NCBI RefSeq assembly: GCF_965363235.1
Contig: NC_134844.1
Location: 15,048,646-15,112,645 of the forward strand
Reading direction: 5' to 3'
Length of the DNA: 64,000 bases
Origin: Mytilus galloprovincialis
Lineage: Eukaryota; Mollusca; Bivalvia; Mytilida; Mytilidae
Part shown: piece by piece, positions 11,201-49,454 of the stretch
Position numbering within the stretch: the stretch's first letter is position 1
How the letters are laid out: each line of letters starts with the position of its first letter
The notes under the pieces: model-generated
What the model was told of the DNA's origin: nothing
Database searches by the model: none
What the model saw: only the letters and a program-made list of their open reading frames with translations
Program-made: the position numbers and the translations under genes

Positions 11201-14200
11201 TTAAGATGCTTGTATAACTTTGATGAAATTTTTCATTGTCTCTACTGACTGTTGGGTTAATCTGTGTCTTTCTAACAACTCTTCTTTTCTTTGTCGTTGT
11301 TGCTGAAAATAGAAATAAAAAAGTTTGATGCAGAAAAACAATTAAAATAAATGGCAAAACAAAATCTTTTGAAACACATATTTAAAACATGATATGCCTT
11401 ATATATCCTGTTATTTACAGTATACGAATACGAAAAACTAATAGAAAACAACTGTTTACTGAACATGATCCTCATCTGTTGAATTAACTTACAAAAGTCA
11501 TTTATTATTTGTGGGTAATTTACTTGTTCAACTTCAATGTATAGATAAAAGCAATTAAGATGTCAAGAAATTCATACTGCATGTGACTTCAGAAAGAGCA
11601 AAAGCTTCCCAATAAAATCTTTAGTATTTATTTTCTATAAAACCTAAAAAAAAAAGTTATACTAGAGATATATAGATTCCTTCACTGCAACAAGTGTATT
11701 ACGATATTTCTCCACTCGAGACAGTTAAATTTTATTATTTAAAGCGTGAGGCTTGCCGAGCTCTTTAAATAACAAAAATTTAACTGTCGAGAGTGGAGAA
11801 ATATCGTAATACACGAGTTATAGTGTCGGAATCTGTTTCTCTAATGATTTTTATCCTTCTTTTTCAAAGATTTTCAGAAACTTATGTTCTTTATATGCGA
11901 CGTCATCAGGCATGGTCGCCTTTTTTCATGAAGTTATAATAGAAAATTCAGAAGAAAACAAAACATTTAGACGTCATAATCAAATTTCGACTAATCATTT
12001 GCCGAGACCGGTTTTTTCACTAGTGAGGAGAAATATTTTTCTCACACCGGTCAGGAAATGTGAAAATAGCACAAAAATTAGAGAAATATCTGTTACTCAC
12101 CATAAGACTTTCATTGAGTGATTTAGTTTTATTTGGTTATACTAGAGATATATCTGTTACTCACCATAAGACTTTCATTGAGTGATTTAGTTTTATTTGG
12201 TTATATTAGAGATATATCTGTTACTCACCATAAGACTTTCATTGAGTGATTTATTTTATTTGGTTATACTAGAGATATATCTGTTACTCACCATAAGACT
12301 TTCATTGAGTGATTTAGTTTTATTTGGTTATACTAGAGATATATCTGTTACTCACCATAAGACTTTCATTGAGTGATTTAGTTTTATTTGGTTATACTAG
12401 AGATATATCTGTTACTCACCATAAGACTTTCATTGAGTGATTTATTTTATTTGGTTATACTAGAGATATATCTGTTACTCACCATAAGACTTTCATTGAG
12501 TGATTTAGTTTTATTTGGTTATACTAGAGATATATCTGTTACTCACCATAAGACTTTCATTGAGTGATTTAGTTTTATTTTCTATCATCATTTTCTCAGC
12601 CAGTAAATCAGAACTTCTCCTTTGAAGTTTTCGTTTCTCTTCCTCTTTAGCTACAATATATATATAAACTTCATTAATGAATGTCACTGCATTTCTGTAT
12701 CACCCATTGTTATTCACATAATGCTATAGTTACTTTCTTTTTTCAAACATTATTACAAAAAGTGTTATTTTTCCCCCCCTATTGTCTGTCAACTAAAATG
12801 TCAACATTTCTTGTATATCATATTGAACATAATCATATAAAAAGTTTACAGATAAAAATTGTTCCAGCAATTTTATAAAAAAATAGTATTTTTCCTAGCC
12901 ATGTTAAATATTTCTTCTTTTGATTATATTGTTATTTCATTCAAACAACCGATAAAATGAATATGTCATGTATATTGTTTCTTCAGTTTTGTTAACAATT
13001 TTATTATATCCCATAATATGACCTGCCTTTGATAGAAATCAATCTTACACAAATGAATATCAGTATATCTGTTAATCTATATCAGATTGAATTGATTTCT
13101 ATGATTTTATTGACTACTTACCAGTTTTGTTGGCAATAAAGTTATGTACCATAGCAAGAGTTTCAGCAGACCAGGTACCAGATTTTCCATTAGCCTGTAA
13201 TAATAATTAGAGATATAAAAGTCTATTTTGCAATCTATTTTTGGTTACATTTGTGATTGATTGTTGGTTGCTTAATATCGAATGGCAAATATTTCATGCA
13301 TTTTCCGGTCAATAGTTACTTGTGCTATTCATTTGAATATAAAAATTCGCTACACATACATTTGCCATAAAACTAGTTTCAAAAAATTATTTAGAATTCT
13401 TTTGGCATTTTCATGCAGTATAGACTAACCAACATGAATGTACCAGTCATGTCATACATGGGAACTCTTTCAGCTCATGACATTGTTAAGTAAACTATTT
13501 TGCAAACTTATTGTCTTGTAGTAAATAAGATTATTTATACATAAAAAAGAGTTAAAATAAGTAAGTTTGAAAAAAAGATGGGATAACAATTATGTTTTTC
13601 TAAATGAAGTGAACAACAGGAATTTGAAACTGTATCTTACATGACATTTAGGACAACTCCATCTTCCCTCTGGAATGCTGGGTAATGATGGTTCTACACA
13701 ATGAATATGGTAAGCTCTATGACACGTGTCACATGGAATGAGGTTATCTACCATGCCACATTTGGAACAAGACAAGTCTCTGACTTCTTGGAACTGAAAG
13801 ACAGGAAAAGTTTTTTTTTTTTAATTCTTGTTAAGGATGTACCTCTGAGGAGCCAAAAATTTCTAGAATTAAGCTTTTTTTCTTAACCTGATTTTTTGGT
13901 TTATAAGACTGTAACAAAATAATTGGTGAAGAAAAAATCATATGGTGGTGCACTTCTTTTTTTTGCTAGGGCCCTTTGAAAATGCCCAATTTTGTTGATT
14001 TTCCCATTTTTCATCATTTTTTACCTATTTTTGGGCTATTATCATAAAAAAAAATCACAGTTCCACAATTAAACTTTTTCTCATACTTTCTATAAAGATG
14101 AAGTGGACCAATCTGAATAAATTTTACTTACAAAAACTATAGGTAGGTGTTAATATAAGAAAGTTTTATCATATTTTGACGCTTTTTTGTGTAAAATTTA

Positions 14201-17200
14201 CCATGCTGTCAATTTTATATTTTTGTGATTTTTCTCAGTTTTAGGTTGCATTTCTGTAAATATTGACAATGCAATTTCCCATAGGAACTCCTTTTACGGC
14301 TAAAACTGTACCACTTTTACTATGAAGTTTTGAAAAAAATCTTATCCTAGAATTGAAAGTTCATATGCACCACAATTTTTTTCAAAGGTCAAAATATAGG
14401 GCTGTGCGGCATATTTTCAACGTTTAGATGCCCTGAACTTCTCAGAGTTTAAACTTACACTAATTTTCTTAACTACCCCTACCTCGAATGAAAGGTTACC
14501 ACAGATTTCAATGTAAACAATATGCACGTGTTTATTTACTGGTAACATTCCCAAGTTCTGTCTCTGCGATATGGAACACAGAGAGTATAACTGGGAACCA
14601 GTATGTAAACAAAATCAATTTTCTATGAATATTCAATTACTCCCCAAAAGAGGCGTGTTTTGAGAAACAGCTGTATTTACAAAGTGCAACCTATACAGAC
14701 ATTTATTCAAATAGAAAACTCTCTAAAATCAGTTTTTCTCACATAAATACTCATTTATCAGAATTAAAGTCTTAAAGAAATCACTGTGTATACTCTAAGT
14801 TTTTCTTTACTATACATTTTATACCCCCTCCCCTGTTTCAATTTTTTTAAAGAATTTGAAAACAAGACTTTAATTATTGCCAGCTTACCCTATTTGCATA
14901 TTTTCTGATAAAAAATGCCTAAAACCTGTTAAAAACTGTTTTTATAACATATTGAAAGCATATCAGAATATCATATTTGTAATGTGAAGCAGTCAATCAT
15001 TACAACATTCAAGATTATATAAAGTATCCAATCCAGCCTCTATCTCCAGTCCACATCTTACTGTATGCCTATTTGTCAATTAAAGAACACATTTTCTGCC
15101 TCAAATGGTCAATTTAGAATTCTTGTCACAACAGTATCATCTGTAACCATATATCTGACACAATTTAGCTACTATATATACTAGAAGTGTTCAAACAAAG
15201 CCATATTTGCAATAGTTGTATGTATGCAGATACCAGTCTGAATAATAAATTCACTTAAAATGTTGTAGAGATGACTGCTAACATCTGATTTTTGCATAAC
15301 TTCCAAGCATAGTTATTGTTTTCTATATCAAGAACTTTAAAATCATAAATTCATAGCATTTACAAGTTAAATTATTTGTTTTATGACCTGGGGGGTAGAC
15401 AATTTGCTATGTTTTTTGCCCCTGGGGCCTCAAATTTCCTAAATCATTCTGCTGTTTCTAGCAATTTGGAATATTTAGTACATATTCAGGATAGAACACA
15501 CTATTGTAAGTTTTCTTGAGATATTTTTGTTTTTCTAGCTTGTATTTATTATGCCGTGGTGACAAAAAAGCAGACTTAGGTGTTGCGGCTTACTTTTGGG
15601 TTATCGAAAGGACACAAATACCCCATAAATAATATTCAGGAAGGATCTATGAGTTTCAATGACTGCGAAGAGTAAATATAAGCACTTCTTAACAATTTAA
15701 CTTACAAAAATGCAAATATTATGATTTAATTTTGTATCCAGGACTTTAAGTAAACTATGCATACTGTAAACTGAATTTTTGCTGAGTCATCATATTTAAG
15801 GCCCAGGATTCTATCAATCTTCATTAAATATTTATAAAACTTCTTATTTCAGTTAATTTCTAATCTGTGAAATAAAGCAAATTTGGTTAAATTCTGAATG
15901 TTCCCCTTTTTCACCCTATATAGGTTGCATTTCTGTAAATATTGACAATGCAATTTCCCATAGGAACTCCTTTTACGGCTAAAACTGTACCACTTTTACT
16001 ATGAAGTTTTGAAAAAAATCTTATCCTAGAATTGAAAGTTCATATGCACCACAATTTTTTTCAAAGGTCAAAATATAGGGCTGTGCGGCATATTTTCAAC
16101 GTTTAGATGCCCTGAACTTCTCAGAGTTTAAACTTACACTAATTTTCTTAACTACCCCTACCTCGAATGAAAGGTTACCACAGATTTCAATGTAAACAAT
16201 ATGCACGTGTTTATTTACTGGTAACATTCCCAAGTTCTGTCTCTGCGATATGGAACACAGAGAGTATAACTGGGAACCAGTATGTAAACAAAATCAATTT
16301 TCTATGAATATTCAATTACTCCCCAAAAGAGGCGTGTTTTGAGAAACAGCTGTATTTACAAAGTGCAACCTATAAGAACAAAATGCATATTATTTCAACT
16401 TTTTTGTTATAAATGAATGAAAAAAGACATACCTAAGAAATTTAAAAAGACCAAAATGATATGGGATGTACATGATTCTTGTAAAATCATTTTTTGTATC
16501 CCTCACCCATTTTCTCAAAATTTTGGCTAAAAATACTGACTTGATTGGTCGTAAAATTTGAAAAACTGGATTACGCAAAAACCATTCATTGTAAATACAC
16601 CTTTTTTCACAGATTTATGTTTGCTTATAATATTTTTAAAATTCATTGATATTTTCCACTTCTATCACATGTTTTGGAAATAATTCAAGAACGAGATTTC
16701 AATGAGACTGAACGAGACTGAAAAGTCAGAAGAATACATCCTTAAGGAGAAAAGTCTATTTTTAAAATGTTAGTATCTCAAAGGCATTACGGTAACTAAA
16801 GATTGTTAATTATGTGTTTTGACATTTCTGACTTTTCAGTTGTCTTATTTCTTCTCTCTGATACACATAATGTAATATAGCTTCAACTAACAAGAGGCTC
16901 CATTGGAACTATTGTGTTCTTTGATCTTGTCTTTATTTGTGCTATAATGCTTCTTTTGGTTGGCAGTCTTTTAATGTGGATCGATATATAGGCATCCAGC
17001 TGTAGTGTTTTTGATTTTGGGCATTTTTGATGCAGGTGGGTCCTGAGGGGCAATTCAGACACGATTTTTAAAGTGTTGTTTCCATTTAGTTTTCCTTGTA
17101 TTCATACCTCCTTATGTCAGTTTTCTCTTTTTTACTCATGTTATGTTGACCACATTAATTTTAGACTGAGCAAGTTCTTTTCCTAATGATAACATTAATA

Positions 17201-23200: not shown

Positions 23201-26200
23201 ATTTACAGTATGGGTTTTTCTTATTGTTAAAGCCTGTATGGACACCTGTAGAGGTTTAAAACTTTCTCTTTTTATTGTTGGTGGACAGTCGCTCATTGGC
23301 AATGCGACCACATCTCCATAATTTCATACAACTTTTTTTTTCTTTTTTTTAAATTTCATACAACTATGATTTTTCATGTATATGTTAATATAGATGACTG
23401 TATTTATAAATACCAATATATGCAAATTTTAAATAATGTAATAAGATATTTTACGTATGAAGTTGACCTTCACTTAGGATACTGAGGTACTTGTAAAGGT
23501 GATCATGGCTGAGATTATTTTTTTTTCTGCTTACCTGTGAAGTTGACCTTGACTTTGGATACTGAGGTACTCATAAAGGTGATGATGGCTGAGATTATTT
23601 TTTTTCTGCTTACCTGTGAAGTTGACCTTGACTTTGGATACTGAGGTACTCATAAAGGTGATGATGGCTGAGATTATTTTTTTTCTGCTTACCTGTGAAG
23701 TTGACCTTGACTTTGGATACTGAGGTACTCGTAAAGGTGATGATGGCTGAGATTTATCTGTCTTTATAACTGAGCTAACCACATTTGTTACAGCTGTTTG
23801 AATCAGAGAGACAGGTAGAGGAGCTGGTAGTATCCTGGCTGGCTGGATCGGAATAACAGGGGTTGTTTGTATGTTCGTTGGCTGTGGCAAGATTTGTTGA
23901 TTTATATGAGCTGGTTGTGGTAATGATGTCACCAACTGACCAATAGATTGGACAAACTGGGGCATAGCACATATTTGAGGTGAGATTGGTTGACCAATAG
24001 ACTGAGCAGCAAATACAGTGGGAATGAGTTGATTGACAACAGGCTGGAGTAATAAATGAGCAGGTTGAGACATAGCGTGTGCGGCAGGTGGCACTGATGT
24101 AATAGCAATACTTGTGGCTCCAAGTGGTAGGCAAGTAGGCTGCAAGAAAATATATACATTTGATACCAACAGTGATTAAGTTATTGAAGCCAAAATTCAA
24201 TTTTAGTTTAATCTTCATAGCATGTCTGTTCCATACATTGTCAAATTTGTCATATATTTATCAGATTTGAAAAGTAGCGCAAAAGAGGTAAACATAGTCT
24301 AATCTTATTAATCTTATGCCTAATGCTTCACATACATGTAGGAAAATCTTTTCAGTATATTGATGAGCTATTCTAACACTCTCTAGGAATTTAGTAATAT
24401 TGCAATCTACATTGCACAAATGTAGAGTGAATTATTTCAAAATTCAATATTTGTCCTTTATCAAAAAAGATTGATACAACTAAAAATCTTTTTTTATCAC
24501 TTCCTGGAAAGGTGAAAATTAAGATTTTAAGCTGAGTAGTTTCTAAAACATTAGGTATAGAAACGATATCATTCTACTGGATCCCATGTTAATCAAAGGT
24601 GTAGTTCACTGGAGGTACTCAAACTATACCAATTTCTATTGTTGTATGACGTCAGAGGAGTGAAACAAATGTGAAATTATCGGTTTTTATTTCACTGGGA
24701 AATCAATGAAATTCATTACAACCAATGTAATAATTAAAGAATAACTAATCGAAGAATTCAAATAGAGAAAAATATTCAACGAGTGACCGAACATCACATT
24801 AATTCACGAATGCGCGTGGCGCATGAGTTAATTATCAGTGTTGTTCAGTCACGAGTTGCATATTTTTCGATATTTGAATTCCTTAATTAGTTAATTTTTT
24901 TATTACATTGGCAAATGGCTTTTTTTTAAAAAGAAATTAATGTATAACATGTAAAGAACTATATTTTTTTCTACGCACTCACAATTTGTTTTGATCCGCC
25001 GTTATAGACGTCTTGACAACGCCTATTTTTGTATGATGTCAGAGAGTGAAATAACCACATTTATTTCACATGTGAAATTATCAGTTTTTATTTAACTGGG
25101 AAATCAATGTAATTCATTGCAACCAATGTAATAATTAAATTTAATGCACATGGAAATAGTAATTAATATATTAACGATCACATGATACAGGTTATATTTA
25201 ACTGAGATTTACCTGAATATTCATTTGGGTTGACACTGGTGATTTCTTTGTTATAATATCTTTACGCAAACTTTGTACTATAATTCTCTGCAAAGAAATT
25301 TAAATAATTCATTTCTATTAAACAATATGCTCATTTTTTTTTTTAATTAATACTACTATTCAATTTAACAGTATTTTCCGATGCATTTACTATCTTTTAA
25401 AGTGGATTTGATGTAAGAGTTCAGATGTCATTAGCCTCATTAGGCAAATTCTATTTCAACTTCTTGTGATTTTCACACTCCTAATATGGAGAATTTAACT
25501 TTTCCAAATAAACAGTCCATTTTTTAGGAGGCAGTACCCAGTACTTTTACCCTTCTATATACAGTTTTAAATTGTCCTTTGATTTCTTCTGCCTCTTTAT
25601 AAACATATAACTGTTTAATCTTGCTGTGGGATCATAGCTCCATTAAATCCTTAAGATATTTTTTGACAATTTGCTGACCCTAAGCTCGAGGTTCTTATAA
25701 TTTTTTTGTGCACATATTGTCAAAAAAAGTATAGTTTTGTTACAAAGATGTTAATAAATAAACTGAAAACTATATTAAGTTAAGGTAACACTCTACAATG
25801 TGACTTTGAATAGATTTTCAAAAATAAATATCTTTTTCCTGATACAAAAAAATAATTAAAATAAAAATTTACTTTTTTTAAAATTCAAATTAAATTACCT
25901 GTTTTTCACTTAAAACTGTAATCTGTTTCTGTAAATCACGAAGTTGTGTTTTAAGCTCCACATTCTGTAAAGAAAGACATAAATTATCACTTGTATAAGT
26001 GTAACTGGAAAATGAAACTTTGTCCAACAAAAATCAATAAATACCCAAGCATATAAAATGTACAACAATGATTCAGTAAAAATACGTTAATTTCCTCACC
26101 TGTAGATCAGCCTTTATTTTAGAAACCAGGATCTGAAATTATAAAAAGTACAAAATACTAGTAAATCATATTTTAATTATTAATTTTATTGTAAATCTGT

Positions 26201-29653: not shown

Positions 29654-29700
29654 CGTTGTTAATATAATTATGTTATGCTTTCCTGATTTCTCTTTTGCAC

Positions 29701-32221: not shown

Positions 32222-34650
32222 ACTGATCCAAAAAACTACAGAGGAATTACAGTCCTTCCTGTTATTGGTAAAATTCTAGAGATACTTCTTAAGAACATCT
32301 GTGGCAAATAATCGCTGCCATCCAAAACCAATTTCAGAGAGGATTCACGTCTAAAATATCACCATTATTTTGCGCTCTTCTACTTAATGAAGTGATTATC
32401 GATGCAGTTTACAGAAAAACCCCTTTACATGTAGCACTGCTCGATGCAAAATCTGCTTTTGACGTCGTAAACCATAGTAGTTTATATAGGAAATTATATC
32501 TAGCAGGGATTTCTGGTTCATTATGGCTACTTTTGCATGATCTAAGTGTTGGTGCTCAGACATCAGTTCGATGGGAAAATCTGGTCTCTGAACCCTTTGA
32601 TATTAGGCAGGGAGGAATATTAAGCACAGAATTATATAAACTTTATATAAATGATGTTCTTAACCAAGTAGAGGACAGTGCACTGGGATCCTATATTGGT
32701 CATATCCACTGTCCTATACCAACCTGTGCAGACGATGTCACTCTGGTAGTGAATGACCCTACCAATATGCAAACCCTTTTGTCAACTGTGGAGAATTACA
32801 GTCAACAGGAGAAGTATTCATTACAGCCTACAAAATGTAAAATTATTAAAACTGGAAAACCAAAAATAGAGGATAATTTTAATTTCATATTAAATGATAC
32901 ACCCATTCAAAATGTTGAAACAGCTGTACATTTAGGAATTACCCATAGTAGTAACCCGCGGCAAACCATTCCAATCCATGTCCAGGAAAACATCAACAAA
33001 GCAAGGAGAACAATGTACAGCTTGATGGGAACAGGCATGCATGGCAAGAATGGTCTTAATCCCGTAGTAAAGTTGGTCGTTTTTCAAATATTCCACGAAA
33101 TGAAAGAATTTGCAAAAAATGCTCCTCTGGCTGTGTTGAAGATGAAATCCATTTTTTAACTAACTGTGAAAATTTTAAATCGGATAGAGATGCTCTCTTT
33201 GATTTGTTTGCCAAAGAATTCCGAATTTTTCTACACTTGATAATCAGCATAAATTTATTTATTTATTAAACTGTGAAGACAATCAGGTTCTTAATGCTGT
33301 TGGTAAATTTATTAAAGTGAATATGAGTTAGTAATTGTATTGTAACTGTATGTAAAAAATTGTTTGTATCTATGTATCTATGCAAATCAATATTCTTTTG
33401 CCTTATTCATGTATGCTCTGTATGCCCCTTGTGGGCCCTTAATTGGAAATAAAATATGTTCTGTTCTGTTCTGTTTGTAGCATGCCTGCAATTATTCCAA
33501 GTTTACGTGTTACCAGTACTCATTTATGGTCTAGAAATACTATTACCAAATTCTACTCAAATGGAACCAATTGAAGTCTTCTATCGGAAAAGTATCAAAC
33601 AAATTTTATCTATCCCCAATAACACAACAGACATGGCTGTATATATACTGTCGGGTACCATTCCAGTAATCAGTAAAATGCATAAACTAGCTTTAGGAAC
33701 CTTTGCAAACATTTCAAGACAGGAGAACTCTATAGAAAGACAAGTTGCAGAAAGACAAATTCTTATCTCAACAGCTGTTAAGGACAGTTGGTTCACAAAA
33801 ATTAGATCCTTATTAATTAAATACAGCCTACCATCAATTTTTAACATTTTAGATGAACCACCCTCGAAATTAAAATGGAAGAACCTTATCAGGAAAGCAA
33901 TTGACACTTACTGGGTTGATCATGTGGTGACCATGTCTGTCTATTATAAGAGTATTTCATATATCTCTACAGCTAATTATAGTACTGGTCATCTTCACAA
34001 TGCTCTGGCAAGTATCCAGACTTCTGCAAAAGACATCCAACGTCTCCCCATCAAACTACGACTCCTTACTGGTACATATATTCTCCAATGCAACAGGGCA
34101 GCTTTTAACCAGATTGACATTAACCCAACATGTCTTTTGTGTGAGGAGGACTCTGAAACATTATATCATTTCATTCATTCATGTCCTGCTTTAGCTTCTG
34201 CTAGAAATCATCACATGCTTGAACTTTCACATATTCTCAATAATAGCGAGCTCTGCGTCAAGTGTAGATCATTAGAAAAGCTAGAGATTAGTACACAACT
34301 AATATTGGATGCTAGTGCCTTGCTCTGTAATCATTGGTAATTGTCAATGTAAATGTGGATGTACTGACTTTCTTCATCTTGTAGAGTACATTAGTAGAAA
34401 ACTTTGCTTTGCGTTGCATATTAGACGTAATACACTATTATTAACATTACCGACGATTAAAAAGAAAGGGTTACTTGCAACCACTCAGTCAAAGGCGTGA
34501 ATATTTAAAATCTAAATTGTTCTGTTTTAGATTTTTTTTTTAAAAAGTGTGAGAACATTTGTGGGTGTTACAATGTATATACACCATTTTTCCTACTCTG
34601 AAACCAGAGGTGTGCCTTTCAAAGGCAGGATATTCATACAAGACAAGACA
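32222..34650 (+). pseudogene. Second LINE: reverse transcriptase and C-terminal zinc-knuckle region, interrupted
   Basis: Starts near 32225 with DPKNYRGITVLPVIGKILE (5' truncated; frameshifts to 32390). An open segment at 32392-33063 has the palm motifs HVALLDAKSAFDVVNHSSLY, FDIRQGGILS and CADDVTL, the last replacing the usual Y/F-ADD. After a 409-bp insertion the frame resumes at about 33481 with YVLPVLIYGLEILLP and runs to TAA 34338-34340, including the Cys-rich CLLCEEDSETLYHFIHSC. The 3' tail contains GGTGTGCCTTTCAAAGGC and an ACAAGACAAGACAATACA end near 34647. It is non-functional as it stands: 5' truncated, frameshifted and split. Confidence 0.85.
33068..33476 (+). mobile_element. 5'-truncated LINE nested inside the LINE at 32222
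   Basis: The 409-bp insert encodes a typical LINE tail (NERICKKCSSGCVEDEIHFL, then CENF), with a stop, a 3' UTR, GGCCCTTAATTGGAAATAAA and a (TTCTG)n end at about 33459-33475. GTAG flanks both sides (33064-33067, 33477-33480). Removing it rejoins the host LINE frame exactly. Confidence 0.85.
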
Positions 34651-35607: not shown

Positions 35608-38600
35608 ATGGCAAAGAGACGAGCAGATAAAGAATTAACTGACAGAAATTGGGACGATGAAGATGAACCAGAAGAGGTTAGTTAGGGATTTTACTTACTA
35701 ATTCATATGTAGGTGATATTTGTGTCATGGAATTTTTCAAGCGCCAGGTTCGCAAAATAAGGTAAAAGAATTTTCTTCATTTCAATGAAAAGTCACGACA
35801 AATGAATTTTATTCCTGTCTAAAAATTTGCATGTATACATATAAAGATCTACACTGATTACTTAGTACCGTAATTGATTCTATTTATAGATTATGAATAC
35901 CACCATAGACATTTACAACATGTATGCAAAATTAGTTCAATCTGACATAAAATAGTTGACCTGTTACAAATAATGAGTTTCTTATCCACATACCATATTT
36001 ATTAAACATGTTGTGTACATGTATACCTGAAAACATGTAGATAAGTGCATACATTTTGTAATAATAAATTAGATACTAAGATAGTCTATAACACTGTATT
36101 TTTAACTTTACAAATTGTTGAATTTCAGGCAGGGGAAATCCAGCTTGCCACTGAAGAATCATTAAAAGGAAGACAAATTCTGAAAGGAAAAAGGAGAGGT
36201 GCAGCTCCAGTTCAGGTATTGTGCTAGTTACTTGCAATTGTAGAATATTGTAATAAGAGAATAACTATCTTTTTCTCAGAATAATGTGTAATGGAAAGGT
36301 GACAAGTCTTCTTGTTAATTGTACATGTACCTTACCAGTAATCTTTTAAATACTTTGTAAAAGAAATATATACATTTGTACATTGATATAAAATAGATTG
36401 ATATGAGTATATCCTTAAGTTTTTATTTCTTTATATTTTGTACGCTTAATATTTATAAATTTCAGTCATAGATTTGATATTAAAAACCTTCTTTCTTTTT
36501 AGAACAAAGAATTCAGTGGGTTTTCTGGTTTTAGTTTCAAACCTACAGCAGCTAGCACACCATTCTCTTTTAATGTTAGATCGGTAACTAATGGTGGGTC
36601 GGAAAAAGATGAAAAACAAACGGAGAAAACAAAAGAATCTGAAAATGGACAAGCAAAGACACTTCCAGCATCAAATGGTGCTGAGAAAAAGAAAGGATCT
36701 TATTTGTCAAGTTTGAAAAATTTGAATGAAAGTGTATTATCATGGATAAAAAGTCATGTTGATAAGAATCCATTTTGTATATTGACTCCTGTATTTAAAG
36801 ACTACGAGAAACATTTAGAAGAAATAATGAAAAATAAAGATGGAGAGAAAACAGAAACTGGAGACAAATCAAAAGGAGAAACAGACACAAGTAAGTCATG
36901 TAAAACCACTGTAAATTCAAATCTTTAAATCTGGTATAATTTTTATAATTTGTGGGATATCAACTGACATGGATTTTGAGGGTAAAAATTGAATCAGAAG
37001 TTTAGCAAGGGTCCAGAAACGGTTAAATTTGCCAAACATGATTGACCTATTCTGAAATCTATTTGTGCTAAACAACAGATTGGGATATGGGACAAATTTA
37101 ATTTGTTTACAGAAATAATTTGGTCATTTCGTTGAAACTAGGTTTCTTCATCGACAATTTGCACTTGTTTTTGTCTTGTTATCCCATTCCTGTAATAAAA
37201 CTGCCACTCCAGTATAGTGTTATAATCCCGAGGGCCCACCTTATAACTGTATTAATGCCTCAGGGAAATATTGGCTAATGATGATAGCTAATCTCTTTAC
37301 CTGTGTTTTTAATTTACACCTGAGAAATGATCACAAGCTCAGAACTAATATTATAAAGAAATTAAAAAATTCCATAACAACTGTCTTCATTATTTAATTA
37401 TTTTTCAGCTAATACAATTGTTAATTCTGATTTAAAATCAAATTAAAACTAATTTACGTAGAAATAAGTAATTTTTACTTGACACACAAACAAACTTTGT
37501 TTACTATGTAATATGGCGGAAATACTCTTCCGCAGATTAGACCACTTAATTGTAAAATGCAAAATGATTTCATGCTAAAAAAGAACCAAACTTACAAACA
37601 TAATCAAACACTAAGGTAAAAAATTAAAAAGCTGAGGATTTCCTGTCTATTTGATAAACAAAACTAATCCCCTAAATGAGTCCAGAATTAATTACTCGCG
37701 CAAAACATCAAGTTTAAATTTTGTCTTCAAAATCGAAAGAAAAGTTAGCGATGTATACACATTGGCACACCTCTATTTGAAATTAACAGTTCTCAACCCA
37801 TAATAGATGCCAAATTTATTTGTTTGATGTCCGACCAGTTTTTAGTAATATAGTAATTTATTATTTTTTTACAGAAACAGCTCCAACATTTCCCCTTGGA
37901 AATTCTCTTATGTCACCAACATCTTTAACAACAGAAAACAAGCCATCTGTTGCAAGTTTTGCATTTGGTAATTCTCCAAATTCTAAAACAGCAACAACTA
38001 CAGAGACCAAACCATTGGGAACTGGTTTCCAGTTTGGATCCAGTTTAACTAAACCAACTGGGTTTGGTTCTATTCCTACCACAACTGCAGCCTTTGGTGC
38101 CAGCTCAACTACAACAACTGGTTTTGGTACCAGCTCAACAGCTTCTGGTTTCTCAGGGTTTGGTTTCAAGTCTTCCACAGAGAGTAAACCTACATCTGGT
38201 TTCTCGTTTGCTGTAAACAAGCCAGCTGGAGAGAGTGGTGCTAGTCAAGGTATATTTTGATATTTACTTTGCCCTGGTGCATATGCATGCTTTAAAATTA
38301 CTTTGAACATCAACAGACAACAGAAACGTTTTAATTAGAATCAGATTGAAATGCAATGGTTACAATTTATTATGTTTTCAATAATTAGATAATCAAAACT
38401 TGATGCACATGTACTAAGTCAAAGTTTAAAATAATTGAAACTTATTTTTAGCTCACATGACCTAAATTCCTAGTTGTAGCACATGAGAAAAACAAATTTT
38501 GTCTATGAACAGAAATGTTCAGATGTTGAGATCTCAAAATTTTTGGTTCACACACAAATTGATAGAAAGAAAAAATAAAAGGAAATGATCAGCAAGACAA

Positions 38601-40962
38601 GATCTACAAATTTGTAAACATAGACACAATTGTCAGACAACTCCTTATAGGTCAGGAGCATTGGCCTCAAATGATGTTTTTTTTACAAATTATTTGCCTA
38701 TTATATCGTAAACTATAATAGATGAGAGGGACAGACAACCAAACTTTTAAGTCATTACTCTGTTCCTGTAAAGTAGACACCAGCAGTTGGTGAGTTGCCG
38801 CTCAAGGTACACTGGAAAATTTGAAATAACAAAATACTGAACTCCAAGGAAAATTCAAAAAGAAAATTCCTGATCAAATGGCAAAATCTAAATATCAAAC
38901 ACATCAAACAAATGGGAAACAACTGTCATATTCCTCACTTGTGAACACATTTCCTCATGTTGAAAATGGAATGGTTGAACAACACATGTTTTTAAAATTT
39001 CGACGAAACGTATTATGGTATGCAAATGTCCGGTGTCCGTCTGTCTGTCTGTCCGGCGTAAACATGTTGCATCGTAACTTGAGAACAACTCATCGAAATT
39101 TAATGAAACTTTATACATGTTATATAGTTGTTTCTTATGATGGTCAAATGATTTGTATACTTTTTGGTGAAAATAAGATAAAAACGGCACTTTGTAACTA
39201 AAACAGACACACTGCTTTGTTATATTAATCTCAAGATCTGTATACCTTTTGGTTTTGATTCAAAATTTTATTTTAGTGATATTTAAAAACAGGGGGGGGG
39301 TTTCACATGTCCAGCTGTATCTCAAAAACAATATAAGTTATTGCTTAAAACTTTCTCAGAAACTATTTATGATTATTGCATAAAACTTCCACACACAAGA
39401 CGTCGGGTGTATCATGCGCTCATGGCGCAGCTGTTTATTTCTTTCTTTATGATTTAACAGTTCCAAGTTGGTTTCAACACTGTAAAATGTATCTCTGTAC
39501 ATATAAAGCAGTAAGTTTATTATTCTTTTTATGTACTTTGTAGAAGAAGATGATGAATATGTGCCTCCTCAAGCAGAATCTAAAGAGGTTCCAGAGGAGG
39601 GATCAGTACACTCCATCAAGTAAGTAGTAGGTTTATATTCACCCCTCAAGCAGAATCTAAAGAGGTACCAGAGGAGGGATCAGTACACTCCATCAAGTAA
39701 GTAGTAGGTTTATTAACACCCCCTCAAGCAGAATCTAGAGGTTCCTGAGGAGTGATCAGTACACTCCATTAAGTAAGTAGTAGGTTTATTTACACCCCTC
39801 AAGCAGAATCTAAAGAGGTTCCCAAGGAGGGATCAGTACACTCCATTAGGTACGTAGTATGTGCCCCCTCAAGCAGAATCTAAAGAGGTTCCAGAGGAGG
39901 GATCAGTACACTCCATCAAGTAAGTACTATTCTTTATATTCGCTCCTCACATTCCCTAAAACCACAATTTTAAGTGAAAGAGGGTTGATCATCTTGTATT
40001 GTAAATTTTATTTTTCATATATAGCTTACTCAAGTACAACCTGTCTTGTATGTATCTTAATACCTGACCTAGTTTAATGGAAAACATGGAAAACATGGAT
40101 CAAAACTACAATAAACTATTTAAAATTAATTGTCTCTCTTTCATTTGGTCACATATTTGAAGATTTGAAGACATCAATTTAACAAAATTTCGATATACAT
40201 TTATTGCACGTCTTATAGGAAGGGTAAATGTTGTTCACTGATTTCATTGTATTATCATAATAAAATATCTATTTATAGATGTAAGCTGTTTTATCAGAAA
40301 GATGGAGCTTGGACAGAGAGAGGTGTAGGATTTTTACATCTGAAGATAATTGATGAAAAGTTACAACTTGTAGTTCGAGCTGATACTACCCTAGGTAAGA
40401 CATTTATTCTTCTGTAGCATTGATTGTTGATGAGATGTATTGTGGAAGCAATTTTCAGATATGCCAAGCAATCATTGTCTGTTTGATGATTATTTTTTTT
40501 AGGTCATGTTTAATAATGAGTGGTTGAATACTTGTCACAGTCTTGTGCAACTCTTTTTTTCAGTCACCATTTCCAATCCAACAAAAGTTATTTATCATTG
40601 TTATTTATAGTTTTTTGTTTGTCTCATTTTTTTTCTTCCTCAGATTCTGAAAAAAGCCATTTATTGTGTCACATTCATTACAACCAAAAGTCAGATTTTC
40701 TAAGCTAATTGGATATTAAAAAAATCATATTGCTATCACATTTATTTTTCCAGGCAACATAATCTTGAACATTATACTGTCTCCATCTATACCACTGAAA
40801 AGACAAGGCAAAAACAATGTGAGCATGATATGTGTACCCAATCCTCCTGTGGACAAAAAAGCTGATCCTTCCAAACCTGTTCCTATGATGATACGAGTAA
40901 AAACTTTGGAGGACGCAGATCAACTACTAGAAAAAATGGAAGAATTGAGAAAGAAAGATTGA
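35608..40962 (+). CDS. NUP50: Nucleoporin NUP50, complete, 7 exons
   Basis: Exons, all GT-AG: 35608-35676, 36129-36215, 36503-36890, 37875-38249, 39544-39619, 40279-40394, 40754-40962. Joined length is 1320 nt, 439 aa (human about 468), with phases consistent. The start MAKRRADKELTDRNWDDEDE is the conserved NUP50 N-terminus that binds importin-alpha. Exon 3 holds FSGFSGFSFKP and the NUP50 core VLSWIKSHVDKNPFC...LTPVFKDYEKH. Exon 4 is Ser/Thr-rich with FG repeats (FGNS, FGSS, FGSI, FGAS, FGTS, FGFK). Exons 6-7 form the C-terminal Ran-binding domain (CKLFYQKD, LQLVVRADTTLGNIILN, VPNPPVDK, IRVKTLEDADQLLEKME). In other animals NUP50 sits at the nuclear basket, binds RanGTP and helps displace cargo from importin-alpha (established for the family). 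Exon 5 has a 5-copy donor array. Confidence 0.96.
38790..39430 (+). repeat. Dispersed repeats in NUP50 intron 4
   Basis: R1 copy at 38822-38945 (CAAAATACTGAACTCCAAGG, AACAACTGTCATATTCCTCA). It is followed by a second repeat with TCTGTCTGTCTGTCCGGCG (about 39038), a poly-G run near 39292 and an end GTATCATGCGCTCATGGCGC at about 39410. The 107- and 100-codon frames here are repeat sequence. Confidence 0.65.
39567..39925 (+). repeat. About 77-bp tandem array spanning the NUP50 exon 5 / intron 5 donor, 5 copies
   Basis: CCTCAAGCAGAATCTA-type starts lie at 39567, 39644, 39722, 39797 and 39867. Each unit carries 53 exonic nt, ending CACTCCATCAA, then GTAAGTAGTAGG and 24 intronic nt. Copies 1, 2, 3 and 5 keep GTAAGT. 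Copy 4 reads GTACGT. Reading past the first donor gives an immediate TAA (ATC AAG TAA), so only 39619 is productive. Confidence 0.95.
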
Positions 40963-42924
40963 TGAAGAAATTGTACTTAGTTTATTTTGGATATTTTTCT
41001 GCCAATATGTAATGTACAATTGTAGCAATTTTACGTATGATTTTGTAATTTCATTGCCATCAATAAGGGTATATGTGTTCATCCTAAAGTTCATAAACTA
41101 AGACAATAAACAAGTTTTTCTGTTAATGTGTAATGTACAGTTGTAGCAATTTTTAATATGATTACATTATTTCATTGTCATTAACAAGGGTGTTTGTTTT
41201 CATCTTTTATTTCATAAACTAGGACAGTAAACAAGATTTTCACTGCATGTGAAAGAAAGTGTTTTCAGGTTGTATAAATATGTGTCTCTCATCTTTATTT
41301 TGAAATTTTAAAATGTTTTCTGGTTATAAGTACTGAGTATCAGTTTGTGTATGAATTGGCTATATTTGGATTTATATTTGTCAAACATGAAAATGGACAA
41401 AATACTTATATTGTATAGAAAGGCCAGTATTTTCCCCTCAAATTGCAAATAACAGGCTGGTACACAGGTTATTTTAGAATTGCATTTTTTTGTTGTTGTT
41501 GAATTATAACATGACATCCATATCAAATCATTTCAGACAGCATCTGACAGTCAAGCCATATAGCATCTTATTTCTATGATACTTAAAGGACAAACTTAAA
41601 TCTGTTTTTTTGTAATCAAAAACATGTTTTATAGTGGCAAAGACTAAATTGGCTGAATTTTATAATACAATTTATGAATTCCAAGATATCCAGTGTTTTA
41701 TATGAACTTATTCTATTAATTTTTTTCCATACAACTATGAATTTACTTTAGGAACCATTGAAAAGTATCTGTTACATTACTTTGAAAGTTTGACTGAATA
41801 TAACTAAATCTAAAAAAAAAAACAAAATGCACATAAACAAATTTTGATTTAGAGACAAATGCTGTTCTAGCCTTGTTTCAAAATCACATAACAACTGCAT
41901 GGTTAGTTTTATTTCATTTATATTTCATGATGTAGTAAAAGTGCTGAAATCATTCATACAGCAATGCTGTCAAATCCTTAAACTTTGTAGGCCATGTAAA
42001 ACGTATTGTGAACATTTACTTAATTTTCTAAAAACAATGAGGAAGGATGTAATTTACTTTGTGTATTCATCATGCATGATTTTTATATAACAAACTCCTA
42101 ATTTTAATTGATACCCAAACATGAAATGTGCATTTTTTCTTTTTCATACAAAGCAGACCTCAATAGTATTTTAATGTTATGCATCAATAGCATCATAATT
42201 CCTGTAAGGCTTATCAACACATTTCGTGACAATTGATTCAAGCCCATTGAGAATATCTAAATGAAAATTTTCAAGATATACCAGTACAGATTTCTGCTTA
42301 AAAAGATGTGTAAAGAAAGATGCTATTCAAAATTTTCTAAATTAAAACTCTTTTCAAGGTACACAGATCTATGCTAAAAAGATGTAGATATAAGAAAAAT
42401 GCTGTTTCTTTCAGCAGCAATAAATCTGAAGTATTTGTAAGTCTTTCACTGGAAATGAATACAATAATTTAGAAAACAACATCCTATTGATCAAATTTAT
42501 TTTAGAACCAAAAATGTATTTTCAATGACATTCTGCAAATTTCCTAACATCCCAAGTTATAACATATTCTTGATTAAAAATCATACTTTTTTTTTAATTA
42601 AGTATGTAATATCAATGAATAAAGCCAACAGAATAATGCAATACATCAGGTACATAGAATCCCAGCTACATTTATTACACAGAGTCAAGATTTGTGAGAT
42701 GTTTATCATTTAGTAGATAATGAATGTTGTAAAATTGAAATGAGTGAAGGGTAAAAGAATTGGAAAAAGACGATATGTTTGAAAGATCTGTTAAAATTAT
42801 TGCTCTGTGTTTTATGAAGTTTTTGAGCGTTAAAGATTGTTACATCATGTAAGTGCTTATTATCATTTAAAAAGTGCTTTGTTATATATATTTTTCAATA
42901 AAAGTCTTCGATTTGTTTGTAGTA
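40963..42924 (+). other. Probable NUP50 3' UTR
   Basis: No coding potential. Candidate AATAAA signals lie at about 41105 (in the first of two tandem copies) and at about 42897 (CAATAAAAGTCTTCG). Confidence 0.45.
41001..41240 (+). repeat. 120-bp tandem duplication in the NUP50 3' UTR
   Basis: TGTAATGTACAATTGTAGC at 41009 and TGTAATGTACAGTTGTAGC at 41129 start aligned copies that stay similar through ATAAACTAAGACAATAAACA and ATAAACTAGGACAGTAAACA. The AATAAA in copy 1 is AGTAAA in copy 2. Confidence 0.8.
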
Positions 42925-42942
42925 TTCGATTTGTTTGTAGTA
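42907..42942 (+). repeat. 18-bp tandem duplication after a poly-A signal
   Basis: TTCGATTTGTTTGTAGTA occurs twice head to tail, about 5 bp after AATAAA. Confidence 0.85.
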
Positions 42943-43629: not shown

Positions 43630-43639
43630 TACAAATAAA

Positions 43640-43830
43640 ACCATGAATTGATTCCTATTGAGGCAACTATCCACAAGGGACCACATGACCATGATAGAAA
43701 CAATAGGTTGTTATGTAGCCTTGAACAATGAGGAAAACGGTTTAACCTGCACTGCATAGTAATGCAAAAGGCCAAAAGTGACAAATTTAAACAGTCCGGC
43801 CTAGAAAAGCAATGGCCTGATTGATGTAAA
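43640..43830 (+). repeat. R3 repeat, diverged copy
   Basis: GATTCCTATTGAGGCAACT, ATCCACAAGGGACCACATGA and AGCCTTGAACAATGAGG match the R3 pattern of 17612-17712. Confidence 0.5.
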
Positions 43831-44734
43831 AAAACAAATATGAGCTACTGTTTTGGAACAGGCATATACAAAATGTTCCTGGGTTCAACATGTTTTCTTA
43901 CCCCAATTATAGAACAGTGTTGTTACAGCTCAACATAAGATCAAACTGTAAAAATCAGTTTAAATTGACTACACTCATTAGATCGACACAAAGCTAAATA
44001 AAAAAAAATAAAAACATTCAAAAGACTAAAGACACACAATGATCTGAGTTGACTCGCAGCTTCTGAAAGCTCGTTCAAAGCCAAAAATTACTAATTAAAA
44101 AGTCATCCATCCAAAACAACACTTTCTAAATATGCTAATTGACTCCTTTTAAACCTCATTTTGGTGGTGTACGTTTATGTGTATACTTATATATTTTCTT
44201 CCCAACTGGTTTCTGAGCATTCTGGAATACTGTTTATCATGTGTGCCAGGTGCTATCAACTTTCTCATTGAGTTTCATATGAAATCAGGAACAAAGTCCC
44301 AACAGTTCTTGTTATTCAGCATTTACAACTGTAAAATCAAGTAAAGGTTGCGTCTCTGAAAGCCCTCTAATGAATCCTGTATTTTTCAATTGCAGAATTT
44401 GATAGTAATGGTACCATGTAGTATCATGCCTAGAAAATTATTTGATACTGGAACAGTAACCATACTGGTACTGGCTGTACTAATTTACTTTTGACTGTTT
44501 CTTAGATTAAGGATCAGAACCCAACTATTCTTGACAGTTGCTTTCATCTTATTAATGTGATCTCCTCTATGTAGTTCTTGGTGTCTGTTCCATTGTATTT
44601 ACCACCGGAACTCTTTCTAGATTAGTCTTGAAGTTGGTATTAACATTAATTATGTTATTAAACTTTGCAATGTCGTAGGTGGTACATATTTAGGCAAGTA
44701 AAGCTATTTGCTAGCCTCTTGTGCACTTTTTGAT
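43831..44734. other. Intergenic, nothing recognised
   Basis: No supportable gene or repeat. Confidence 0.4.
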
Positions 44735-45185
44735 TTTTATGCCCCACGGTACGGGAGGAGCATTAAGTTTTACCCTTGTCTGTATGTAAGTACGTCCCAA
44801 AGTTGGTTTCCGTTCTGTTCTCTAACTTTAATTGCTTCAGCCAAATGTTATGAAACTCATACAAAATGCTTATTACCACAAAACACAGATCATGTTTGAA
44901 TTGTGGTAGCGCCCCTTTTAACGTTCTACAGTTATGCCACTTCACAAATGAAAAAATGCTGATTTTTTTTTTGTTTCCCTTCTATAACTCTTGGTTTGTC
45001 TCAACCAAATTTTATCAAAACTTATACACAATGCTTATTGCCACAAACTACAGATCAAGGGTGATTTTTGGTGGTGTCACTTCAACCGTTCTAGAGTTAT
45101 GCCCTTTTACAATTTTGTCCCCTTTATAACTTTATATGATATGCAAGTGGAGGTACCATCTGTGTCCCATGGACACATTCCCCAT
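44735..45185 (+). repeat. Dispersed repeat with internal half-repeat
   Basis: TATGCCCCACGGTACGGGAG opens it and GGACACATTCCCCATTTTT closes it. ACAAAATGCTTATTACCACA (about 44861) and ACACAATGCTTATTGCCACA (about 45028) mark two similar halves of about 167 bp. The 87- and 93-codon frames are repeat sequence. Confidence 0.65.
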
Positions 45186-45322
45186 TTTTTTATTAATAAA
45201 AAAAAACATTGCTACTATCAGTTTTATTTGAATGAGGATAACATATTAGAAAAAGCTACCAGTATGTGTTAACAAACAACCAGGATAGCTGAAACCAAAG
45301 GCTTTCCCACATTATAGTATTT

Positions 45323-45442
45323 GTTAGACAGAATAGGTGGCGTCAGAGGTAATGCTTCAACGTTTATACAGGATAGGTGGCGTCAGAAGCAATACCACAT
45401 CGGTTATACAGGATAGGTGGCGTCAGAGGCAATACCACATTG
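45323..45442 (-). repeat. 40-bp tandem array over the coding end of the last cathepsin exon, 3 copies
   Basis: GATAGGTGGCGTCAGA-type units at 45323-45361, 45362-45402 and 45403-45442. On the gene strand the proximal copy encodes [13 protein letters not shown] and the stop. The second copy still reads [12 protein letters not shown]-stop, and the third is decayed (stop early). Copies 2 and 3 lie after the stop, in the 3' UTR. Confidence 0.93.
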
Positions 45443-48400
45443 GTTATTCTTATTTCTTCTCATTAGTATGTAACCTTGCATTCCCCAGTTTACACCTAAA
45501 ACATACAAGATTATACTCAGTTTCACTATTTTGCTGCTTTACATCACTGCTGTGTTTTGATTTTTTAAAAGAGAATGACAATTGAAATAAAATTCAGGGC
45601 CTTTTTCTTAAAAAAAATTAGTGTTGATATGATATTTTTGATGATATTGTAAATTTTACCGGAATAGCGTGAGACACCAGTTACATGAAATAATTTGATA
45701 AGATTCTTTATTGTAAATAGTCAGAATATGACGAATATACAAATATCGACACCCGTTTGATGCACTTGCTTATAAATATGAGCCTCTGGAAAGGGGAACC
45801 TACATTTATTTAGTTCTCTGTTATCTATTTGCAGACCTTCTTTTCTCTATTTGTTTCTTATCCCATTTAATTTTGTATTCATGGACCAACATTCTGTAAT
45901 CTGTAAGCCTTATTCAGGCCTACAAAAAACATACCCCAGCTATTTTTGACGATCCAATAATCTTTTCCACCTTCAGAACCATATCCGACGATCTGAACCG
46001 CGTGATCAAGTTTTGTTGAACTGCACTTTGGTTCATCGTAGACCCCAGATCGATACAACTGAAATGACTGATGACTAGCATCAATAACTGCCATTACTGG
46101 AAAGTGTAACACGGCTATCTGTAATTGGTCTTCGTTTCCTTCTGCAACAGCCATTGTGCCCATATTCTGAAATCGAAAAAAATATAGAAAAGTTATGTAA
46201 AGAAGTTCCAAGACAAACTTTATATTTTTTAACTAAGTAAATTTATAAAGTTTTTATTTTAGAATTAGCAAACATCTATGATATTTATTGATGTCTTAAC
46301 ATTGTAGTAAAACGTGGCATGCAATGAAAGAAATTCTTGTCTCTTATTTATACTAATTTTTTAAAAATGCAAAACTTATGAATTGTTTGAACTATTGAAT
46401 ACTAGTATACATGATAGGGATTAACATACCCGTACAACGGACGTACAGCTTGTGTTTCTGCACTGTCCAGCTGAACCATGCGTTGGATAATCTGCCATTG
46501 AACACAGACCACCTATATTATGTATACAGTTAAACACTGGTGTCACCAACTCAGACCCATGTATACAGCAGTCCACTACTTCTTGCAAGCTTAATGGAAT
46601 CGAACGTCTATTTTTTATAAATTCATAGCTTTCCATAATTTCTGTGTTAAAAAAGGAAAAACAGTTCAATTCTTCGGCATGTTTAGTACAATTGGTGAAT
46701 TATATCGTATCAATTGCACACAGACTATTGTTACATTAGTGCATAATTTTTTTCAGGTTTCATAATGACATTTTTATTCTATATCCATATCACTGTGTGC
46801 TACTTAAAATCTAGTGCATTTTAAATTTGATTTGATTTGATTTGACATTTTTAAAAACAAGTGAAAAAGTGTCAAGTACAATTAAATAGGGGTAAATATA
46901 GATGGAATGCATCTTTAAAACATTTTAAATCTAAATCTCCAGCTCCCCTGAATATAAATACTTTGTCTGAGCTTTTCGAAATAAATAAAAAAGTAGGATA
47001 AGAAAAAAATACTCCTTGTTTAAAGACATCTTACATAATACATCTAATAAACGCAAAATCACACAACTTGATTTAAAGAAAAATCCCCAAAACAACTCTA
47101 CACTTAAGAGAGAACCAAAACATTTTTTTTAAATGCACTAGATTTTAAGTAACACACAGTGATACATCTTCGCTAGCCAAGAGTTACGATCCACTCCCGT
47201 TCTCTTCACCCTTGGCAGATTGAGCTAACATTTGTGATATCAATGTTGCGCCATCTATCGGAAGATTAAAGTCACGCCCATTCCGAATACATTATTCTTG
47301 ACCAATGGTAGCACTTGAACTCTTCAATTCGGAGGTAAAAACACGGTAGCGTCTAGATTCTACACACTTGGTAAAGCCGGAAACGAAAATATACGTCAAC
47401 ATTCATGTATTTGTGCATGAAACATACACAGGAACTTCTATTAGTTGATTAATAACATTCAAGTTGTCACTAAATATAGTCGTATGTTTAGTGATATAAA
47501 GACTTCTTGTACAATAAACACGTGGCAATTGTTTACAAACACTTTCTACATCTACACGTGATCATGTTATAGACGCTTTTTGATTGGAGCGAGTTTCTAC
47601 TGCAACCAATAAAAATCCTTACCTTGTGTCTCCGAAATTTCATCTCAATCGGCCAAGGGTGAAGAGAACGGGAGTGGATTGCTAGCGAAGATGACAGTGA
47701 TATGGATATAGGATAAACATGTTAAGAAAGTGTAGAGTTGTTTTGGGATTTTTCTTCAAATCAAGTTGAAGATTTAGATTTTACAATGTTTTAATGATGC
47801 ATTCCATCTATATTTACCCTTATTCAATTGTACTTAACACTTTTTCACTTGTTGATAAAAATGTCAAATCAAATCAAATCAAATCTAATTGAAAATGCAC
47901 TAGATTTTAAATAGCACACAGTGATATGGATATAGAATATAGATAGTAGCGTAAAATTTTCAAGAATATCACCTATAGCTGCAATTGAAAGTACTTGTCC
48001 CAGCTGGCCTTGATTTTGCACAGGACCTATTGCACCTTTTGTTCTCCAATCAAAAGTAGACGGTAAAAAAGTCCAATTGTGTTCAATCTCTTCATACTCT
48101 CTTTCAGAATCAGTTTTAATATGCGGACGTTTTGGTGATTCCTATAATGATAAATCAAGTAATTATGACATATAAAAAAAAATATGTGGTGTGATTTCCA
48201 ATGAGATAATTAGACTCATCATGCTGACACCAAATAATCCGACTGGCTTGGATATAGAATTAGTCGACAGTAGTTTAATGGTGATCAAATTAAAGCCTTT
48301 TTTTTTTCTCACGATGAGTGATAAGTTTTCGGAAATCTGTCGAAGAGAAAAAAATAAGGTAAAAAAACACTAACTAAAACTAAAGGAATCACATGAACTC

Positions 48401-49454
48401 TACATGGAAAAAGACCGGGTACGGAATAAGCGTCTCCTGCTATGTATGCATTACAGGAAATGCTAATCAACATTCAACACAACACATACCGTATAGTCAA
48501 CTATCAAGGACCCTTATACGAGTAAACCAATGTGAAAAGATTAAAAGAAGAAAAAACAACAGTGCGACCTATGCCAAAATAACAAACGAAAACTTGAACA
48601 TCATGACAGACAGCAACCACCGCCAACAACTGACACAAGCTAGTAACAAAAGAACGCCGGAACGCGTTTTTATACACAATAATGTGCAATCGTCATCACT
48701 GAAAATTAACAGGTACCAATCTTGAAGAAATTGAACTTATAAGCGAAGAATATGAAATACTAAGTACATCTTCTTTTTGACTTTGAGTTAAAAAAAAAGA
48801 GACTCGATCATTCACTTGCAATTTGATTTTTTTTCTCAATTAAAACTTCCTTTTTTAAAAACTTATTTTTAAATTTATGTAGCTTACCAATAGATTCAGT
48901 ATAATTTTTGGAGTTTCAAAGCCCCCCTCCCGACACAGCTTAATTCAAATGTCACCAACAAGTTAATCATCACTATATCAATACCAATATGCGTTTTAAT
49001 CATATATACTAGTAATTTCTTTTGAAGAACAAAATTTGCTGACACTCTTTTGTTAATAGTGTCCGGATTTTAGTTCTTTAGTTCTAAAGATGAAAATTAA
49101 AAATGCTATGTTGTCCCCCAACAAAGACAATTTATGAATATTACTATCAGAGGAAGTCGTTTTGGGGTTGTTGTTTCCTCTATGTACGGTTCACATTTTA
49201 AATACAATAACATAAAAACCCACCTGGTCAGCAAATTCGTTCATTGCCAATCTGAATTCTGACTGTACATCATTGTTGTGTGCATTAACATATTCCAGGT
49301 TCATCTCCCACACGGCACGCTTGTTAGCTTCATCTTCTGAATTACTGTAATATTTGTCAAAGTCAGTTTTCCACCGATTCCATTGACCATTCAGATCAAC
49401 TACAGCAAAAGAAGCCGACACAAAGGTTGCCGTGAAAAATAAAATCAATTTCAT
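45404..49454 (-). CDS. Cathepsin-L-like protein without the catalytic cysteine, complete, 5 exons
   Basis: Exons: 49224-49454, 47973-48141, 46430-46641, 45935-46166, 45404-45495. Joined length 936 nt, 311 aa, all GT-AG with matching phases. A signal peptide ([17 protein letters not shown]) leads into an I29 inhibitor pro-domain (ERFNIN-type spacing, NEFADQ). The mature domain starts near [20 protein letters not shown]. The family motif GQCGSCW is replaced by GQLGQVL, so the nucleophile position (residue 127) is Val. A disulphide Cys is Leu, and the usual GCxGG segment after DC is missing. His ([12 protein letters not shown]259) and Asn (VKNSWG, N279) remain. The C-terminus [13 protein letters not shown] is canonical. 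A proteolytically dead paralog, or a gene early in decay, is the inference. With no frameshift or stop, the first is favoured. Start: Met at 49454; the preceding codons in frame have no ATG. Confidence 0.9.
46776..47938. mobile_element. Nested fold-back/long-TIR cluster in cathepsin intron 2
   Basis: Outer arms ATTCTATATCCATATCACTG (46776) and CAGTGATATGGATATAGAAT (ends 47938) invert. Pairing continues for about 150 bp and again at 47075-47112 with 47730-47765 (AACTCTACACTT / AAGTGTAGAGTT). An inner pair (CGAAGATG-type; CTCCCGTTCTCTTCACCCTT at about 47197 with AAGGGTGAAGAGAACGGGAG at about 47656) marks a second element. It ends 35 bp from the exon 2 donor. Confidence 0.7.
48183..48720 (+). 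repeat. R3-type repeat in cathepsin intron 1
   Basis: ATATGTGGTGTGATTTCCAA (48182), ACAACACATACCGTATAGTC and CAACAACTGACACAAGC fit the longer R3 consensus I recall. The 110-codon frame at 48393 lies in it and is not a gene. Confidence 0.55.

Follow-up and report, generated by a model that had tools for sequence, protein, structure and literature searches.

Short tandem arrays sit on the edges of coding exons in three genes of the mussel Mytilus galloprovincialis, within a stretch of 64,000 nucleotides (contig NC_134844.1, positions 15,048,646 to 15,112,645) that is referred to here, as a whole, as the window. A first-pass annotation of this DNA had pointed to four such arrays, and Tandem Repeats Finder (TRF), run over the 64 kb, recovers all of them near the coordinates it gave; the gene models likewise agree with it that three of them (B, C and D) each span a GT donor, or 5' splice site, and that the fourth (F) spans a stop codon. 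An excess of arrays on exon edges is also observed at independent loci of the same genome, subject to the inclusion of cases recognised by eye and to the choice of null. The explanation that we favour, and in which we place about even confidence, is the tandem duplication, assisted in part by microhomology, of mainly exonic DNA, the products surviving where they overhang an exon edge. In the following list, array coordinates derive from the TRF run and exon edges from splice-aware gene models.

12079-12580, minus strand: array B, unit of 64 bp, 7.9 copies (8), 98% matches (TRF)
12547-12650, minus strand: exon 10 of a PHF21A-like gene, coiled-coil, after the PHD finger (tblastn and gene model)
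23451-23754, minus strand: array C, unit of 79 bp, 3.8 copies, 96% matches (TRF)
23693-24139, minus strand: exon 3 of the PHF21A-like gene (tblastn and gene model)
39567-39926, plus strand: array D, unit of 77 bp, 4.8 copies, 87% matches (TRF)
39544-39619, plus strand: exon 5 of NUP50, immediately 5' of the RanBP1-like domain (tblastn, gene model and PDB search)
45323-45447, minus strand: array F, unit of 40 bp, 3.1 copies (3), 85% matches (TRF)
45404-45495, minus strand: last coding exon of a cathepsin-L-like gene (gene model and PDB search)

Copy 1 of array B (12517-12580) comprises the 3'-terminal 34 nt of PHF21A-like exon 10 together with the donor GTGAGT, and the array holds eight donors in total. 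Copy 1 of array C comprises the last ~60 nt of exon 3 and the donor GTAAGC, which is gone from the distal copy, and copy 1 of array D comprises the 3'-terminal 53 nt of NUP50 exon 5 together with the donor GTAAGT. The first copy of array F carries the coding sequence for the conserved C terminus of the cathepsin-L-like protein, with its stop codon, and the remaining copies lie 3' of the stop. The exon-adjacent copy is intact, and the decayed copies of arrays C (C4) and F (F3) are the distal ones. TRF and copy alignment reveal that copies 3 and 6 of array B have a 1-nt deletion in common and that the array follows a higher-order period of 191 bp, in a 64-64-63 pattern; hence, it was amplified more than once. 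The higher-order period, the shared variants and the point changes and indels between copies all speak against an assembly artefact, in which repeats would have been collapsed or expanded, as does the spread of arrays over many unrelated loci, and we consider such an artefact very improbable. Two observations of a different kind concern arrays B and D. The distal copy of array B contains a palindromic element (11666-12078), apparently an insertion, with ~10 bp of the array unit directly repeated on its flanks. The last copy of array D matches the first exactly in its exon-derived part (39873-39926), perhaps as a result of conversion; the middle copies have diverged.

When arrays B, C and D are spliced in silico to the modelled exons, only the exon-adjacent donor of the first copy preserves the protein: the frame remains open across the last exon up to its own stop in B, across the next three modelled exons in C and on to the NUP50 stop in D. 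All 13 of the other surviving donors (seven in B, two in C and four in D) give a premature stop. In array C, where the fourth donor has been lost, the stop falls inside the kept repeat for one of these donors and after a frameshift for the other. Predicted donor strength is retained by 8/8 donors in B, 3/4 in C and 5/5 in D, two of the latter being weaker. The strength of so many decoy donors, together with the identity between the exon-derived parts of D5 and D1, would fit the retention of arrays for function, with repeated donors or acceptors acting as decoys that tune splicing or give rise to isoforms. The premature stops to which the decoy donors of B, C and D lead argue against this possibility, as do the decay of some distal copies (C4, F3 and a myosin array, L054, described below) and the absence of any array from a close myosin paralogue (L062), and we judge it decidedly unlikely.

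The distribution of arrays in the rest of the 1.385-Gb assembly was sampled near homology-detected exons, in 30 kinase loci (10 of them kept), 30 loci for myosin, 34 stretches for TCP1, six more myosin stretches and 20 of 104 kinesin stretches, taken from a seeded shuffle. After merging, the sample amounted to 180,290 bases in 90 segments, and its 127 matches gave 138 exon rows. The 20 kinase loci dropped before counting (L018-L036 and L038) belong to two clusters of tandemly arranged gene copies with at least 99.5% identity across the match, and two further TRF repeats lie among them (L019 and L033). Three more loci (L129-L131) were left uncounted, having been chosen for repeated domain matches or stop codons; one of them, a kinesin donor (L129), carries an edge array (118 bp, 2.8 copies), and the other two have no listed repeat. 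With TRF period set at 30 or above and score at 120 or above, 14 arrays were counted. Seven of these straddle an exon edge, against ~1.87 expected if the unit is placed at random (P = 9e-4), an expectation derived from generous edge counts in which exon edges are partly estimated. Donors account for four of the cases (L061, L064 and L054 in myosin genes, L096 in TCP1) and acceptors for three (L111, L117 and L127, all kinesin), so that TRF-detectable repeats overlap an exon-intron boundary in B, C and D and at seven further loci. The seven off-edge arrays are those of L077, L066, L049, L011, L015 and L119, plus one of the two in L061; those of L077 and L119 extend past the end of their stretches. 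The acceptor arrays mirror the donor ones, the last copy being joined to the exon body and the protein continuing from it. Exon edges in general are thus involved, with four sample cases at donors and three at acceptors, and the special role suggested by the first-pass annotation for the exon 3' end and its 5' splice site is not supported: 3/7 independent cases straddle the 5' edge of the exon.

Myosin genes provide the one case in which repeat number is seen to differ between paralogues. The arrays of L061 (2 copies) and L064 (15 copies) sit at a myosin exon with LIY at its end, and the decayed array of L054 at one with DLLEK. In paralogue L062, the exon end and the beginning of the intron are shared with L064 and present as a single copy, free of any array, and the L064 array can be read, from this comparison, as a tandem insertion relative to L062. 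The arrays of L061 (890-1009) and L064 (218-1116), on two separate large contigs (C9 and C10), have the same breakpoints and are each built from their own sequence, which may reflect either recurrence or gene conversion; paralogues L058 and L062 carry no arrays.

Exonic sequence makes up more than half of the unit in 12/12 edge arrays (L129 and array F at the stop codon among them), with a mean share of 0.76 (sign test, P = 2e-4; P = 1e-3 without L061 and L129), and the distance from the splice site to the intronic breakpoint (unit minus exon part) ranges from 7 to 30 bp. These data bear on the idea of a hotspot at the splice site proper, with transcription, R-loops or U1-bound nascent RNA causing breaks to cluster at the exon-intron border. 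Such a hotspot would agree with the presence of a splice site inside 10/11 edge arrays of window and sample, and with the common breakpoints of the two myosin paralogues. It is made less likely by array F, which lies on a stop codon and contains no splice site, and by the off-centre position of the border in the unit, evident in the mean exon share and in the varying distance to the intronic breakpoint; we therefore regard it as unlikely. At ten founding breakpoints (L117 and L054 excluded), in-register microhomology amounts to 7, 6, 6, 4, 3, 2, 0, 0, 0 and 0 bp, and hence to 6-7 bp at 3/10 of them, the chance of at least 6 bp being 0.4% for each. Array D shows CTCCTCA between its exon and intron breakpoints, array F shows ATAACC and array C shows 3 bp, while array B has none in register.

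According to the explanation that we favour, an array would be founded by the tandem duplication of a segment of ~40-130 bp, mostly exonic and overhanging a donor, an acceptor or a stop codon, with short microhomology assisting some of these events. Fully exonic duplications would arise as well and be removed by selection, and the arrays overhanging an edge would be the survivors of an exon-biased mutational process. Slippage or unequal exchange would add later copies; selection would continue to act on the copy attached to the exon body, and the rest, turned into intron or 3' untranslated region (UTR), would be free to decay, so that the exon would be flanked by a series of decoy splice sites. 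Exon-biased duplication combined with the loss of fully exonic events would thus produce both the excess on edges and the high exonic share. A bolder proposal, which we put forward only tentatively, is that small tandem duplication in this genome has its germline hotspots in exons, with edge arrays as the surviving fringe, feeding decoy splice sites into introns; copies of exons would thereby add to intron length and splicing noise. Exon chromatin or gene-body methylation as the cause of this favouring of exons is a guess.

A number of results weigh against this explanation and qualify the preference for edges that the first-pass annotation had put forward. That preference is upheld by the 7/14 count outside the window, and it is weakened when automatic edge calls alone are admitted, which leave 4/14 arrays (P = 0.03; donors 1 vs 0.61 expected, acceptors 3 vs 0.71) and no excess on donor edges; it disappears under a null that places whole arrays (P = 0.95). 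Three of the seven sample edge cases were recognised by eye, the edge exon of L061 and L064 being absent from the match list and the edge of L054 having been missed by the automatic call. The sample is small, and P rises to 0.046 without L061 (paralogous), L111 (foreseeable) and L054 (decayed); L111 could be foreseen from an earlier list of kinesin domains, though it came within the first 20 of the seeded shuffle of 104. Dropping L061 gives P = 0.004, dropping L111 gives 0.003 and dropping both gives 0.012, and a looser cut (period at least 20, score at least 100) yields 19 arrays, still with four automatic edge calls (P = 0.04). Direct evidence for within-exon duplications is thin, one of the five smaller or degenerate repeats of the window (38081-38139) being exonic, and the distal copy is not always decayed, as the exon part of D5 attests. 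As regards microhomology, 5/10 founding breakpoints have only 0-2 bp, and those of F, C and L096 are measured on the left side alone, from an intact copy; the decayed last copy gives 4 bp for F and 1 bp for C.

In a simpler account, duplications fall uniformly, those on edges survive by virtue of one working copy, and the window and the small sample happen to be rich in them. In its favour, the window was picked for the pattern, so that its statistics are post hoc: 4/7 arrays with units of at least 40 bp lie on exon 3' edges (P = 3e-5 with founding units placed at random; P = 5e-5 under a GC-matched null), as do 4/12 with units of at least 20 bp, the degenerate pair described below included (P = 2e-4). 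Moreover, the other 20/24 exon 3' ends of the window (24 once the final exon of the gene at 941-1212 is counted) show no decayed duplication, and the sample P varies with the cases and the null chosen. Against neutral tolerance plus chance stands the expectation that uniform placement should leave far fewer arrays on edges than in introns, whereas on edges the rough array density is 11-fold higher in the sample and 27-fold higher in the window; the exonic share above one half in 12/12 arrays is also contrary to it. The first-pass annotation had offered a related idea, namely that arrays are tolerated as long as the proximal donor works. This agrees with the finding that only the exon-adjacent copy keeps the protein in B, C and D, and it leaves the excess unexplained: duplications confined to introns ought to be no less tolerated, and tolerance alone therefore cannot yield an excess on edges. 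We thus consider neutral tolerance combined with chance a possible but doubtful explanation.

Other candidate causes were rejected. GC content does not explain the pattern in the window, to which the GC-matched null was applied, and the idea that decayed arrays mark every exon end is contradicted by the 20/24 window 3' ends without them. A spreading element or satellite was also discarded, self-BLAST revealing no matches among the four window arrays, in agreement with the first-pass view that the units are unrelated and do not stem from a single element. When searched against the genome, the 64-bp unit of array B returned at least eight matches, with every one listed lying within array B itself.

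Repeats across exon boundaries are a known kind of structure, and the first-pass statement that no named system describes them was too strong. According to PMC2812944, minisatellite-like internal tandem repeats, detected with TRF, cross exon-intron boundaries in human segmental duplications and can alter splicing; they vary among recent paralogues in human, and manual inspection retained 27 intron modifications. The mussel arrays resemble these in being TRF-detected repeats that straddle exon-intron boundaries and differ from them in occurring in unrelated genes of one genome, in excess over random unit placement and with a mostly exonic unit. A second precedent is intron gain through tandem duplication across an intron-exon boundary, a route that created a new intron in potato and for which the Rogers model is cited (PMC4974935). 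There too a boundary-spanning duplication copies real splicing signals; in the mussel, by contrast, copies number 2-15 and apparently lengthen an existing intron or 3'UTR rather than create a new one. PMC3152781 compares tandem repeat densities by region in Daphnia and 11 other species, and the terms 'splice' and 'exon boundaries' do not appear in its main text, so far as the consulted version extends. Among the matches listed in the open-access literature, judged on title and start of abstract, there was no mussel or bivalve report of edge arrays and none of boundary repeats beyond PMC2812944; recurrence across one genome was thus not found in the literature searched. Should the preference of arrays for exon edges be real, structural mutation would be steered by the sequence or the chromatin of exons, and such arrays would be a common source of decoy splice sites, intron growth and hard-to-annotate gene models. 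Edge arrays point to an under-described route by which genes change shape, and their preference for edges can be tested in any annotated long-read bivalve genome.

Whole-exon tandem duplication, as found in mutually exclusive exons, copies the two splice sites together and yields two apparently usable exons. The mussel edge arrays are similarly made of local tandem copies of exonic sequence, but they duplicate one edge only. Lists of domain matches, read by eye for same-range matches within 1 kb, contained none in TCP1 (49 matches), myosin (93), SNF (99) or DEAD (50), two clusters in kinesin (125) and one in AAA (19). The AAA cluster was rejected as an edge array: it is a whole-exon duplication (L132, G000:C10:45677650-45678650) with two tandem exons that have separate splice sites, diverged DNA and nearly the same protein, and they are likely to be mutually exclusive exons.

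The window contains further repeats that lie off exon edges:

2804-3459, strand not assigned: array A, intergenic, 168-bp unit (TRF)
40994-41241, plus strand: array E, 121 bp in two copies, in the NUP50 3' flank, beginning 32 bp past the stop (TRF, 81% matches)
~89-131 and 816-921, plus strand: array G, 76-bp intronic tandem duplication (self-BLAST and related comparison)

The 168-bp array had been described as the only clear one away from exon edges, which is contradicted by arrays E and G and by two degenerate copies of ~164 bp at 44.8-45.1 kb. An exact search of viral contigs with 20 bases of the 168-bp unit gave no match. The second part of array G ends ~20 bp upstream of the acceptor of the exon at 941-1212, and the array is interrupted by a terminal inverted repeat (TIR) element (132-815, AGGGGCACTAGCT...AGCTAGTGCCCCTT) just 5' of this last exon, which has a weak MFS match. 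The FG-rich exon of NUP50 contains a fully exonic 30-bp tandem duplication (38081-38139, plus strand; 79% matches), its length a multiple of three.

Gene identities were drawn from PDB sequence searches, Pfam and tblastn with human protein queries. NUP50 is identified by a PDB match to Nup50 (E = 9e-40) and the cathepsin-L-like gene by one to procathepsin L (E ~1e-55). The PHD exon matches PHF21A entries in PDB (E = 3e-12), yet a CHD4 entry scores better (2e-19), and the PHF21A name rests on tblastn over several exons with a human query. The first-pass count of 26 coding exons in the three complete genes is plausible and unproven: 23 have been placed, and the PHF21A frame is broken between exons 6 and 7, so that at least one small exon is missing from the model. 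The cathepsin-L-like protein (45404-49454, minus strand) is probably an inactive homologue, since the catalytic cysteine is absent in the alignment with NQEQCGSCWAFSA; its LDHAV and KNSWG regions are kept.

Two kinds of putative mobile element were also noted. A LINE-like element (long interspersed nuclear element; 32293-34340, plus strand) with frames for reverse transcriptase and, weakly, zf-RVT (Pfam) lies between the PHF21A-like and NUP50 genes. An intron of the PHF21A-like gene holds two 454-bp repeats, 100% identical and in the same orientation (14242-14695 and 15921-16374), with ends TAGGTTGCA / TGCAACCTA at TA sites; they were rejected as a tandem duplication, having the appearance of a TIR element pair, and look like a recently active miniature inverted-repeat transposable element.

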